NCBI GenBank assembly: GCA_022572485.1 | Contig: JACZVU010000118.1 | Span: 1-8,214, forward strand | Length of the DNA: 8,214 bases | Source: Myxococcales bacterium | Lineage (GTDB): Bacteria > Myxococcota_A > UBA9160 > SMWR01 | Reading direction: 5' to 3' | Part shown: in pieces, positions 4,350 to 8,214 of the stretch | How positions within the stretch are numbered: position 1 is the stretch's first letter | Layout of the letters: the number at the start of each line of letters is the position of its first letter | The notes under the pieces: generated by a model | What the model saw: the letters and a program-made list of their open reading frames with translations, nothing else | Told to the model about the DNA's origin: nothing | Databases searched by the model: none | Position numbers and translations under genes: made by a program

Positions 4350-4412
4350 ATGGCGTAACCTTCCGAGTTGACAAACGAAATCGCCAAAAAGGCGATCGGA
4401 GGGCTACGCCAT
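4350..4412 (+). promoter_or_regulatory. Inverted repeat that hides the transposase RBS and start codon
   Basis: The left arm 4350-4366 pairs with the right arm 4396-4412: 17 positions with 15 Watson-Crick pairs, one U-G wobble (4361/4401) and one mismatch (4358/4404). The right arm holds the Shine-Dalgarno GGAGGG (4398-4403) and the first two bases of the ATG (4411). The 29-nt interior contains a second small hairpin, TCGCC-AAAAA-GGCGA (4381-4395). RNA started upstream of 4350, such as read-through from a neighbouring gene, would fold the ribosome site shut; RNA started inside the repeat would not. This kind of protection from outside transcription is known for IS10 and IS50. A TTGACA at 4368-4373 lies in the loop but has no good -10 partner. 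Confidence 0.6.
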
Positions 4413-4647
4413 GTCGAAAACTACCATGGGAGAGGCGGAGGTGCTGCGCCTACGCCAGAGCATCCAGACGCCGATGCGTCGTAGGGTTCTCGAAGCCATC
4501 GAGCTCGTGCTCGAGGAAGAGCTGACCGAGGCCCTGGGCACGGGACGCTACGAGCGCGGGGAGGCGCGACGCGGTTATCGCAATGGGCACCAGACGCGCC
4601 GGATCACGACGGCAGTCGGGACGCAGACGTTGGGTGTCCCGCGTGCA
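4411..4647 (+). pseudogene. IS256-family transposase, N-terminal fragment
   Basis: About 79 codons from ATG 4411 match the start of IS256-type (mutator-like) DDE transposases: MSKTTMGEAEVLRLRQSIQT, a helical V-L-E-A-I-E-L-V-L-E-E-E-L segment, then G-R-Y-E-R-G-E-A-R-R-G-Y-R-N-G and T-T-A-V-G-T-Q-T-L-G-V-P-R. The full protein has about 400 residues, and the whole catalytic domain with its three acidic residues is missing. After VPRA the frame reads 28 nonsense codons into IS3 sequence and stops at 4734. Shine-Dalgarno GGAGGG lies 7 nt before the ATG. If made, the product would be a DNA-binding or dimerising stub without catalysis. Confidence 0.8.
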
Positions 4648-4649
4648 CC

Positions 4650-5390
4650 GCCCTGTCACCGCGGGAGCTGGCTTGTCGCTACACCGACGAAAGGCGCTAC
4701 TTCGTATCGGAATCGAGCGTCTATCGCATCTTGAAGGAAGCGGACCTCATCACGAGCCCGGCTTACGTGCTGATGTCGGCCTCGGAGGCCTTCCAGAACC
4801 CCACGACACGCGTGCATGAAATGTGGCAGACGGACTTTACGTACTTTTGGATCGTGAATTGGGGGTGGTATTACCTATCGACCGTCCTCGACGATTTCTC
4901 GCGTTACATCATCGCGTGGAAGCTGAGTTCAACCATGGGGGCAAGCGACGTCACCGAAACGCTCGACGAGGCACTGGCGATCGCCGGCGTCGACCCAATT
5001 CAGGTCAAGCACCGCCCACGCCTATTGAGCGACAACGGCTCCGCCTACGTTTCTGGCGAACTCCGAGACTATCTGGACGCGCGAAAGATGACCCACACCC
5101 GTGGCGCTCCCTACCACCCGCAGACGCAGGGCAAAATCGAGCGCTATCACCGGACCCTGAAGAACGTCGTCAAGCTCGAGCACTACTACTATCCATGGGA
5201 GCTCGAGGCGGCACTGAGGGGTTTCGTGGCTTACTACAACAACGAGCGCTATCACGAGTCTCTTGACAATGTGACGCCGGCCGATGTCTACTTTGGACGG
5301 CAGTACGAGATCGTCTCGGAGCGCGATAGAATCAAGAGGCGTACGATGCGAAAGAGGAAGAAGGAGTACCTGGCGGCAAGAGCCGCCTAG
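4650..5390 (+). pseudogene. IS3-family transposase (OrfB), N-terminally truncated
   Basis: IS3-type sequence begins in frame 3 at about 4650 (A-L-S-P-R-E-L-A) and runs to the TAG at 5388-5390, some 246 codons. The retroviral-integrase-like core is complete: catalytic D in WQTDFTYF (codon at 4833), D in LLSDNGSAY (codon at 5031) and E in QGKIERYH (codon at 5139), with 35 residues between the second D and the E, the D,D(35)E spacing of IS3. It ends in a basic tail (KRRTMRKRKKEY). The N-terminal helix-turn-helix portion and the orfA frameshift region are lost. A TTG at 4731 could start a 219-residue protein holding all three catalytic residues, but without the DNA-binding part it is very likely inactive. 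Confidence 0.85.
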
Positions 5391-5588: not shown

Positions 5589-5800
5589 ACGGAGCTGGGC
5601 GCCTACAGGGCCATGCTCTCCTCCCTCTCCTCGAACGATGTCGGCAACCGAAAGGGCGGGACTGTGCTGCTACTTGAGCTCGTGCGGGCAGACGGTGGCC
5701 GTGGCATCGCCTTCAGAATACGCTCCTCGTCCCTGGCCAGAAGCGAGAGTGACGGGCATCTTTTCTGCCAGTGGATGTATCGGGGGGGAAGGAGCCGGGC
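5589..5800. other. Spacer before fumC, no gene recognised
   Basis: The 212 bp between the DUF420-like stump and fumC hold no reading frame with recognisable protein sense on either strand and no clear -35/-10 pair that I can defend. It should contain the fumC promoter, since the preceding genes are broken. A short frame from 5613 overlaps fumC and has the arginine-rich composition of an out-of-frame shadow. Confidence 0.4.
5789..5794 (+). promoter_or_regulatory. Shine-Dalgarno site that sets the fumC start at 5801
   Basis: AAGGAG stands 6 nt before the ATG at 5801. The frame also opens earlier at a GTG (5771), but that would put this site inside the coding region and add ten residues (MDVSGGKEPG) not seen in fumarases. 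Confidence 0.75.
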
Positions 5801-7198
5801 ATGGCAGCCGAGACCCAGAAGACGCGAATAGAGCGCGACTCCATGGGCGAGATGGAGGTGCCTGCAGACGCACTCTGGGGCGCGTCCACGCAGCGCGCCG
5901 TGCTGAACTTTCCGGTGAGTGGGGAGCGCTTTCCGCCGCGCTTCGTCCGGGCCCTGGGGATCATCAAGGGAGCTGCGGCGGCGACCAACGCCGAGCTGGG
6001 GAAGCTCGATCCCGAGATCGCCGAGTCCATCCAGTCCGCCGCCCGGGAGGTGGCGGACGGGGTCCTCGACGCGCACTTCGTGCTCGACATCTTCCAGACC
6101 GGTTCGGGGACCTCGACCAACATGAACGCCAACGAAGTGATCGCAAACCGGGCAGCCCAGCTCCGCCGCGCCGGCGGAGACCGGATCCACCCCAACGATC
6201 ACGTCAACTACGCCCAGTCGTCGAACGACGTGATTCCGACTGCGCTTCACATTGCCGCCCGCCAAGCCATCCACGAGGACCTGCTCCCGGCCCTGCGGCG
6301 ACTACGCAACTGCCTCGCGTGCAAAGCGCAGGAATTCGACGACGTGGTGAAGGTCGGGCGGACGCACCTGATGGATGCGGCGCCGGTGCGCCTGGGACAG
6401 GAATTCGCGGGTTACGCGCGCCAGATCGAGCTGGGCATCTCCCGGGTCGAGGCGGCGATGGAAGCTCTCGCGGAGCTGGCACTCGGGGGCACGGCCGTGG
6501 GCACCGGCCTCAACTGTCCCCCCGAGTTCCCCACTCTGGCCATCGCTCGCATCTCCCAGGTCACGGGCCTCGAGTACCGGGAAGCGGCCAACCACTTCGA
6601 GGCCCAGGGTGGGCGAGACGCCGCCATCGAGACCAGCGGCGCGCTCAAAACCCTCGCGGTCTCGCTCTACAAGATCGCCAACGACATCCGCCTGCTCGGC
6701 TCGGGACCACGCTGCGGCCTCGGCGAGCTCGCGCTTCCCCCGCTGCAGCCCGGCTCCTCCATGATGCCCGGGAAGGTCAATCCCGTGATCTGCGAGTCGG
6801 TCACCCAGGTGTCGGCACAGGTGATCGGCAACGACGCAGCCGTGACTGTGGGCGGGCTCTCCGGTCACCTCGAGCTGAACGCGTTCATCCCCGTCATCGC
6901 CCGCAACCTCCTCGAGTCGATTCGGCTACTGGCGAACGTCTGCAATCTCTTCGTCACCCAATGTCTGGAGGGCATCGAGGCGAACCGGGAACGGGCGAAA
7001 TCGCTGATCGACGGCAGCCTGGCCATGGTCACGGCGCTGGCACCGGTGATCGGCCACGACGCCGCGGCGCAGATCGCCGAGGAATCCCTCTCCACCGGGC
7101 GAAGCGTGCGCGAGCTATGCCTCGAGAGGAAGCTCGTGGCTCGCAAGGATCTCGAGAGGCTTCTCGATCCGCGCAGCCAGACGCAGCCTCGACTGTGA
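5801..7198 (+). CDS. fumC: Class II fumarate hydratase
   Basis: A 465-residue cytosolic enzyme of the citric acid cycle that interconverts fumarate and L-malate as a homotetramer, without the oxygen-sensitive iron-sulfur cluster of class I fumarases. It begins TRIERDSMGEMEVPADALWG, the standard class II opening. The superfamily signature G-S-S-M-M-P-G-K-V-N-P covers residues 318-328 and supplies the catalytic serine loop. The G-R-T-H-L-M-D-A motif places the active-site histidine at residue 189 (H188 in E. coli FumC), and TGSGTSTNMNANEV and QSSNDVIPTA form the other parts of the composite active site. Length equals E. coli FumC (467). TGSGT and the ANEV form separate it from aspartase and argininosuccinate lyase. 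It appears to be transcribed from its own promoter in 5589-5800. No terminator with a T-run is visible after the stop. Confidence 0.97.
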   Translation: MAAETQKTRIERDSMGEMEVPADALWGASTQRAVLNFPVSGERFPPRFVRALGIIKGAAAATNAELGKLDPEIAESIQSAAREVADGVLDAHFVLDIFQTGSGTSTNMNANEVIANRAAQLRRAGGDRIHPNDHVNYAQSSNDVIPTALHIAARQAIHEDLLPALRRLRNCLACKAQEFDDVVKVGRTHLMDAAPVRLGQEFAGYARQIELGISRVEAAMEALAELALGGTAVGTGLNCPPEFPTLAIARISQVTGLEYREAANHFEAQGGRDAAIETSGALKTLAVSLYKIANDIRLLGSGPRCGLGELALPPLQPGSSMMPGKVNPVICESVTQVSAQVIGNDAAVTVGGLSGHLELNAFIPVIARNLLESIRLLANVCNLFVTQCLEGIEANRERAKSLIDGSLAMVTALAPVIGHDAAAQIAEESLSTGRSVRELCLERKLVARKDLERLLDPRSQTQPRL

Positions 7199-7410: not shown

Positions 7411-7419
7411 GAGGAGGAG
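7411..7419 (+). promoter_or_regulatory. Shine-Dalgarno site that sets the peroxiredoxin start at 7425
   Basis: GAGGAGGAG ends 5 nt before ATG 7425, where peroxiredoxin-like sequence (MLEIGTEAPAFSV) begins. An earlier in-frame ATG at 7338 would add 29 residues with no resemblance to the family and lacks such a site. A GATAAT at 7397-7402 could be a -10 box, but its best -35 (TTGCAC, 7371-7376) is 20 bp away. Confidence 0.75.
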
Positions 7420-7424
7420 TTCCC

Positions 7425-7871
7425 ATGCTCGAGATCGGTACCGAAGCTCCAGCGTTCTCCGTCCAGGACCACCGCGGCGAGATGGTGCGCCTGGCCGACC
7501 TGCGCGGCCAGAAGGTCCTGCTCTGGTTCGATCCCAAGGCCGACACCCCCGGTTGAACGATCCAGGGTTGCGCGTTGCGCGGCCACGCGGACCGAGTAGA
7601 CGCCGCGGGTCTCCACGTCCTGGGGATCAGCTTCGACAGCATCGACGAGAACCGGGCCTTCGCCGAGAAGTTCGACTTTCCCTTCCGCCTGCTGTGCGAT
7701 GTCGACCGCAGCGTCGGCATGACGTACGGGGCGGCCGACGCTCCGGAGGCTGGCTATGCGAAGCGCATCAGCTACGTGATCGGCGAGGACGGTCGCATCC
7801 TCCACGCCTACGCGAAGGTGGATCCGAACACCCATCTCGACCAGGTGCTGGCCGACCTGGGCGCCAGCTGA
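7425..7871 (+). CDS. Selenocysteine-containing peroxiredoxin (BCP/PrxQ type), TGA read as Sec
   Basis: Read with TGA 7554-7556 as selenocysteine, this is a 148-residue thioredoxin-fold peroxidase that should reduce H2O2 and organic hydroperoxides in the cytoplasm. Residues 1-43 (MLEIGTEAPAFSVQDHRGE..., then W-F-D-P-K-A-D-T-P-G) lead into the catalytic motif P37-x3-T41-x2-U44. C49 follows five residues later, the same spacing as C45/C50 of E. coli BCP, so an atypical two-residue mechanism with a selenenylsulfide U44-C49 is expected. The same frame continues without shift: VLGISFDSIDENRAFAEKFD, C-D-V-D-R-S-V-G (C91), then R114 before I-S-Y-V-I-G-E-D-G-R, to a TGA at 7869-7871. Total length is normal for BCP. 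Sec-containing peroxiredoxins are known from other bacteria. A hairpin after the TGA supports recoding. The rival view is a nonsense mutation in a Cys codon, but nothing downstream shows decay. Confidence 0.88.
7554..7556 (+). other. In-frame TGA recoded as selenocysteine (U44)
   Basis: The TGA lies between D-T-P-G and T-I-Q-G-C, exactly where cysteine (TGC/TGT) sits in ordinary BCP peroxiredoxins. Upstream ATG (7425) and downstream codons (7557 on) share one frame, so no frameshift is needed. Of all positions for a stop to appear, the one catalytic Cys is the one that selenocysteine replaces. Confidence 0.87.
7566..7584 (+). promoter_or_regulatory. Candidate bacterial SECIS hairpin
   Basis: GGTTGCGC (7566-7573) pairs with GCGCGGCC (7577-7584): eight contiguous pairs, two of them U-G, closed by a GUU triloop (7574-7576). 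The stem starts 9 nt after the TGA, and the loop lies 18-20 nt after it. That fits the bacterial SECIS pattern as I know it: hairpin inside the coding region, loop roughly 16-37 nt from the UGA, G at the first or second loop position. SelB with Sec-tRNA would bind here. A competing fold pairs 7566-7574 (G7570 bulged) with 7586-7593 around an 11-nt loop. Both folds use the same 5' arm, and GC-rich sequence makes some hairpin likely by chance. Confidence 0.6.
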
Positions 7872-8052: not shown

Positions 8053-8214
8053 ATGAGCCTGAGCCCGGAGCTCCGAGGCCGAATCATGGAGCTGGTCCAG
8101 TCGAACTCCGTCTTTCTATTCATGAAGGGGAACCGGCACCAACCCCAATGCGGTTTCTCGGCGAGCGTGGTGGGCATGCTCGATGGCCTGACATCCGACT
8201 ACGAGACCTTCGAC
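8053..8214 (+). CDS. grxD: CGFS monothiol glutaredoxin (Grx4/GrxD type), 5' part (3' end outside window)
   Basis: The first 54 residues of a monothiol glutaredoxin, a cytosolic protein that binds a [2Fe-2S] cluster with glutathione and passes it to client proteins. Family features in order: an N-terminal helix (ELRGRIMELVQSN), strand VFLFMKGNRHQPQ, then the active-site C-G-F-S at residues 33-36, followed by A-S-V-V-G-M-L and the strand Y-E-T-F-D. The full protein normally has 100-115 residues, so about half is missing at the window edge. ATG 8053 is chosen because AGGAG (8043-8047) precedes it by 5 nt and homology starts at once. The N-R-H-Q-P-Q stretch replaces the more usual T-P-D-x-P-M before CGFS. 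It lies 181 bp after the Sec peroxiredoxin on the same strand, so a shared redox or iron-sulfur stress role is possible but not shown. Confidence 0.9.
   Translation, partial: MSLSPELRGRIMELVQSNSVFLFMKGNRHQPQCGFSASVVGMLDGLTSDYETFD

Follow-up and report, generated by a model that had tools for sequence, protein, structure and literature searches.

Within the window, i.e., the whole stretch of 8,214 nucleotides analyzed here, a single Bcp/PrxQ-type peroxiredoxin frame extends from 7425 to 7871, and its translation meets TGA only at codon 44 (7554–7556) and at its end (7869–7871). The features of this locus are as follows.

7411–7419, forward strand: Shine-Dalgarno-like GAGGAGGAG, read from the sequence, 5 bases 5′ of the ATG at 7425
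7425–7871, forward strand: Bcp/PrxQ-type peroxiredoxin gene, 148 residues with a predicted selenocysteine (Sec) at residue 44, ending with TGA 7869–7871
7554–7556, forward strand: in-frame TGA, predicted Sec codon at the peroxidatic position, with Cys in the 59 other alignment rows and TGA in 13 of 22 loci
7566–7584, forward strand: bacterial SECIS-like hairpin of 8 pairs (7566–7573 with 7577–7584) and a GTT loop at 7574–7576, the loop G being 7574
7569–7571, forward strand: Cys49 codon, candidate resolving cysteine (UxxxxC), with Cys there in 8 of 22 Sec genes
7575–7871, forward strand: headless 98-residue open reading frame (ORF) from mechanical ORF calling, with an internal TTG start; 58 of the 120 best database matches (95–99 residues) start at this point

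Elsewhere in the window, a Grx4-family monothiol glutaredoxin gene (8053–8214) starts on the same strand 181 bases downstream of the peroxiredoxin gene and continues past the window’s end; in the loci of relatives, no such gene was found next to the peroxiredoxin gene, and nothing ties the two genes together. A fumarase/aspartase-superfamily gene (5771–7198) passed the aspartate ammonia-lyase subfamily model (567 vs. 510 bits) and did not pass the fumC model (575 vs. 665 bits), and at 4411–5390 the N-terminus of a Mutator-family transposase (4411–4731) abuts an IS3/IS481-type integrase piece (4731–5387), as if two insertion-sequence remnants had been joined. Seven other window proteins gave no tblastn match at 1e-5 in the relatives’ loci, many of which are short, and the neighbors are therefore uninformative on function.

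An earlier note, made from the DNA letters alone, had proposed that two peroxiredoxin halves share one frame here and are split only by the TGA at 7554–7556, which would occupy the peroxidatic cysteine position in a P-x3-T-x2-U-x4-C arrangement. The translation agrees with this proposal, and the motif is found in the window protein as P37-x3-T41-x2-U44-x4-C49. Overall, the window protein matched PF00578 (AhpC/TSA superfamily) with 99.2 bits, above the Pfam gathering cut-off of 26, and each side of the TGA was also recognized alone: residues 1–43 matched profile positions 1–40 (7.5e-8), and the downstream piece matched positions 44–123 (6.7e-13). The best-scoring model was NF006960 (thioredoxin-dependent thiol peroxidase, Bcp equivalog) with 111.6 bits against a curated cut-off of 140, and because this score lies under the cut-off we refer to the window protein as “Bcp-type” rather than as an NF006960 equivalog; the structures nearest to it, both by sequence and by fold, are those of Bcp. 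The note had further predicted that standard gene calling would yield a 43-residue stub and a headless 98-residue ORF. The latter is in the ORF list (7575–7871), but the upstream piece starts there at ATG 7338 (72 residues) rather than at 7425 (43 residues).

A search among 5.8 billion proteins returned 1,656 homologues, of which the best 120 were examined. TxxC is present in 60 of the 62 full-length homologues among these best 120 of 1,656. The window protein was aligned with 59 of the 62 (60 rows; P0061, P0086, and P0106 left out), and the column of the codon-44 TGA holds Cys in all 59 homologues. At the same site, P0061 has Cys and P0086 has Trp, while P0106 is without the site. Two substitutions specific to the window fall at nearly invariant positions of the alignment, namely Asp for Tyr36 (7530–7532) and Gly for Asp53 (7581–7583).

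Relatives of the gene were collected by a peptide-word scan in which each GTDB species was represented by a single genome. This yielded 22 loci, which are no census, since such a scan reaches close relatives only. The equivalent codon is TGA in 13 of the 22 loci (L001–L004, L006, L007, L013–L015, L018–L021) and TGC or TGT in the other nine (L005, L008–L012, L016, L017, L022), and neither TAA nor TAG was found there in any of the 22. The TGA loci carry the labels Myxococcota or Myxococcales, Deltaproteobacteria, Eisenbacteria, Acidobacteria, Planctomycetota, and Acidimicrobiales, which span five phyla. Four repeats (L042, L044, L045, and L047, of L001, L002, L003, and L007, respectively) and L070, which had been read on the wrong strand and in which the site was not found, were dropped before counting. 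A chance origin is very unlikely, since the aligned column of this TGA is Cys in 59 of 59 homologues and TGA recurs at the same codon in relatives without any TAA or TAG. When 90 genomes from the class to which G001 (the genome of L001) belongs were searched, further TGA genes turned up, one of them 69% identical and located on a 3.67-Mb contig of G032.

A tree of 67 protein sequences places the window in a clade made up of six Sec genes (support 100/99). The best tree implies at least six changes between Sec and Cys, only one of which is forced by well-supported branches. L007, which is partial, was left out of this tree; the N-terminal part of its gene, including the TGA, lies on a second contig of that genome, at its end (G007:C287, L108), and overlaps the start of L007, which indicates that the gene was split by assembly. 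Substitution rates, estimated codon by codon without gaps, were similar before and after the TGA: dN was 0.21–0.27 and dS 0.59–1.06 upstream (window vs. L001, L002, L003, and L043; upstream dS was saturated for L046), and dN was 0.20–0.31 and dS 0.66–0.84 downstream (the same four and L007). Both flanks of the TGA are thus under purifying selection, and because dN is well under dS on either side, a dead or split gene is disfavored.

Bacterial SECIS elements are recognized as a hairpin just 3′ of the TGA whose small apical loop includes a G, and the hairpin at 7566–7584 has this form. For the window alone, it did not fold better than shuffled sequences (z of −0.61 and −0.75 for short stretches, +1.39 for the longest), 7.3% of synonymous recodings of the window folded at least as well, and Rfam returned no family at gathering level for the hairpin, with two chance-level matches in the gene. 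The Gly53 change turns a U–A stem pair into U–G, which can still pair. Across the family, the mean z of the fold energy against synonymous recodings was −1.50 for 22 Sec genes vs. +0.03 for 26 Cys genes, with L014 folding worse than its own recodings (+1.79), and a loop G at the wobble base (7574 in the window) is found in 20 of the 22 Sec genes vs. two of the 26 Cys genes. In the Sec genes, 81.8% of cells are paired vs. 29–48% when the partners are slid; none of 500 shuffles reaches their covariation score. The clearest pairs are 17–27 (AU 9, GC 9, GU 2, UG 1), in which column 27 falls on an Arg codon’s wobble base, and 20–24 (GC 13, CG 6, GU 1), while pair 15–29 is unpaired in 12 of the 22 and L013 keeps three of the eight pairs. 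Two pairs changed on both sides among the 22 Sec genes, no more than in shuffles. In the Cys control, which comprised 14 of the 26 Cys rows, 56.3% of cells are paired, one slid version equals this value, and 3 of 500 shuffles reach it. All of these counts are inflated because the rows are related, and the link between Sec and the loop G comes down to one well-supported independent contrast and four in all, too few to decide. Weak on the window alone, the putative SECIS-like hairpin is nevertheless supported by comparison across the family.

Immediately 3′ of the TGA, the slot for a Thr or Ser codon (7557–7559 in the window) has G as its last base in 20 of 22 Sec genes vs. 6 of 26 Cys genes; this creates a TGAACG context outside the hairpin.

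Sec machinery was sought in the genomes of the 22 loci, with selA, selB, and selD recorded as matches over curated cut-offs and tRNA-Sec accepted only with an ARAGORN anticodon TCA. Of the 13 TGA genomes, 12 had at least two components (G001, G002, G003, G006, G007, G013, G014, G015, G018, G019, G020, and G021), whereas G004 had none by the selA, selB, and selD profiles and ARAGORN-checked tRNA-Sec; among the nine Cys genomes, the machinery was found in two (G005 and G017), each with all four components. The difference between TGA and Cys genomes gives a Fisher p of 0.0015, computed on rows that are not independent and uncorrected for relatedness. Among 19 tRNA-Sec matches, ten were confirmed as tRNA-Sec and nine were rejected as tRNA-Ser, -Leu, or -Gly according to ARAGORN (G001, the second of G003, G004, G011, the second of G014, G015, G016, G019, and G022). 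G032 has a tRNA-Sec and matches to selA and selD, the latter itself containing TGA and covered over 169 of 311 positions. For SelB, with the protein of G104 as query, G032 gave only a 95-residue fragment match; there was no match at 1e-30, and none in the stretches around its selA, selD, and bcp genes.

These results bear on three other explanations of the TGA. If it were a former Cys codon turned into a stop, either in a dead gene or through a wrong base, then Asp36 and Gly53 at nearly invariant positions could hint at such decay or errors; yet this is very improbable, given that TGA recurs at the exact codon in 13 of 22 loci with labels from five phyla, that 58 of the 120 best homologues share one start point just behind it, and that dN is well below dS downstream, and a pseudogene or sequencing error is already refuted for the family. 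The TGA could instead be a true stop, with the 98-residue ORF representing a separate, independently started protein, in line with its TTG start at 7575, a short AGGG (7564–7567) seven bases before it, and the 95–99-residue proteins listed in databases. However, such a product would be a headless redoxin, missing the peroxidatic residue as well as the first strands of the fold; the 43 codons before the TGA are similarly constrained, and in the 22 loci Cys codons are the only alternative to the TGA, with no TAA or TAG, so that we regard a split gene as just as improbable as a dead one. Less probable still is a genome-wide recoding in which TGA would stand for another residue, e.g., Trp or Gly: the Trp of P0086 looks as if an annotator had applied such a code, but it is found in P0086 alone while TxxC is seen in nearly all full-length listed homologues, four of five window frames checked end with TGA as their stop, and relatives carry a tRNA-Sec and the downstream hairpin.

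Taken together, the gene is predicted, with little doubt as far as sequence comparison can tell, to encode a Sec-containing Bcp/PrxQ peroxiredoxin. Computation supplies for this reading the continuous frame, the exchange of TGA and Cys codons at the catalytic column, a hairpin that covaries family-wide, the fold, and the Sec machinery of relatives. In the source organism, SelB with Sec-tRNA(Sec) would read the UGA at 7554–7556 as Sec, directed by the hairpin at 7566–7584 within the coding sequence.

Several known peroxiredoxins are comparable to the window protein. PrxU of Eubacterium acidaminophilum is reportedly a Sec-containing peroxiredoxin (Soehling et al., 2001, by its title). The Sec of PrxU is at the peroxidatic position, as is the predicted Sec of the window protein, but the window protein scored 38.6 bits and did not reach the cut-off of 270 of the PrxU model (NF040737, 233 positions). 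Xanthomonas campestris PrxQ/Bcp and Mycobacterium tuberculosis BcpB are Cys enzymes, whereas the window protein has a predicted Sec. For X. campestris PrxQ, structures of C48S and C84S mutants are available according to their titles. These two Cys residues pair with each other, while the candidate resolving Cys of the window lies five residues after U44. M. tuberculosis AhpE is a 1-Cys peroxiredoxin and likewise a Cys enzyme, unlike the window protein with its Cys at +5.

The closest known system is the Zhang–Gladyshev Sec peroxiredoxin family (COG1225/Bcp, TxxU). In the available excerpts of the respective papers, 43 Sec peroxiredoxins of COG1225 with TXXU are reported for the Sargasso Sea (PMC1088965), 12 in a 2006 survey, three of them for Anaeromyxobacter dehalogenans (PMC1794560), and 253 in the GOS study (PMC2398784); the table of a 2022 review assigns the Sec peroxiredoxin domain to COG1225 (Bcp) (PMC9312934), and the PxxxTxxU motif is described as serving peroxide binding and catalysis (PMC13188914). 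The window shares with this family PxxxTxxU, the Bcp-type domain, a predicted Sec at the peroxidatic position, and a putative SECIS of the bacterial type whose small apical loop includes a guanosine. As far as these excerpts go, which make no mention of a resolving Cys, nothing essential is different, and the Myxococcota branch that includes the window adds one more branch to the family. Consistent with the earlier note, which had called Sec peroxiredoxins a known class, the window protein is thus a further member of a known family described since 2005. The note had also set apart a BCP-type version with a retained resolving Cys: UxxxxC is there in the window, but “BCP-type” denotes no new variant, because the known family is itself COG1225 (Bcp) in the review table (PMC9312934), and the Cys at +5 is not general among Sec genes.

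An AlphaFold2 model based on the 60-row alignment, used instead of a poor model computed without alignment (pLDDT 48), places U44 and Cys49 in the same predicted helix (42–53). The helix-2 resolving Cys of PrxQ/Bcp sits in the equivalent helix, and a Cys at +5, as in atypical 2-Cys PrxQ with such a resolving Cys, is present in the window as Cys49, so that a selenenylsulfide is the natural prediction. In this plausible cycle, the U44 selenolate would attack the peroxide and yield a selenenic acid, Cys49 would be the likely resolving thiol forming the selenenylsulfide, and thioredoxin or glutaredoxin would reduce the U44–Cys49 selenenylsulfide. This is not a family rule: across the 22 Sec genes the +5 residue is Cys in 8, His in 5, Arg in 3, Lys in 3, Gln in 2, and Leu in 1, vs. 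Cys in 17 of the 26 Cys genes, and most of these Sec members must therefore be reduced otherwise, perhaps like 1-Cys enzymes. The Cys of the LLCD motif (residue 91) is found in 14 of the 22 Sec genes and 11 of the 26 Cys genes. Sec homologues with (8) and without (14) the +5 Cys thus form a natural series for asking whether Sec needs a resolving thiol.

The 58 fragments of 95–99 residues among the best 120 homologues all start just after the position of the TGA, which presumably precedes each of them in its own genome, and the Trp of P0086 suggests a TGA translated as Trp. Source names of the listed homologues include “redoxin domain-containing protein” and “peroxiredoxin Q/BCP”. Public protein sets hence often carry headless fragments of the selenium peroxidases made by a bacterial lineage, and correcting these fragments would alter both the inferred antioxidant capacity and the selenoprotein count.

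It is possible, and we put it forward tentatively, that the window belongs to a little-charted, selenoprotein-rich Myxococcota class whose peroxide defense is a battery of Sec peroxiredoxins from several subfamilies, many of them truncated in databases, and that within the Bcp subfamily Sec frees the enzyme from the helix-2 resolving Cys, which would have been lost repeatedly. A search of one paper library on selenoprotein peroxiredoxins in Myxococcota, or on selenoprotein-rich Myxococcota, returned no paper, although such work may be in print elsewhere. The class of G001 looks selenoprotein-rich: 70 of its 90 genomes gave a strong match to tRNA-Sec (E of 1e-10 or lower), and TGA was present in 91 of 150 among the peroxiredoxin matches listed, by hand count. 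Finally, in 20 of 20 weaker peroxiredoxin-like paralogues, picked for an internal TGA (e.g., L087–L106), the first TGA is at the catalytic position, and these 20 represent at least four motif types, e.g., TPGU, TPTU, SAVWUPPC, and a TPGU/TGGU group with an LRDS motif.
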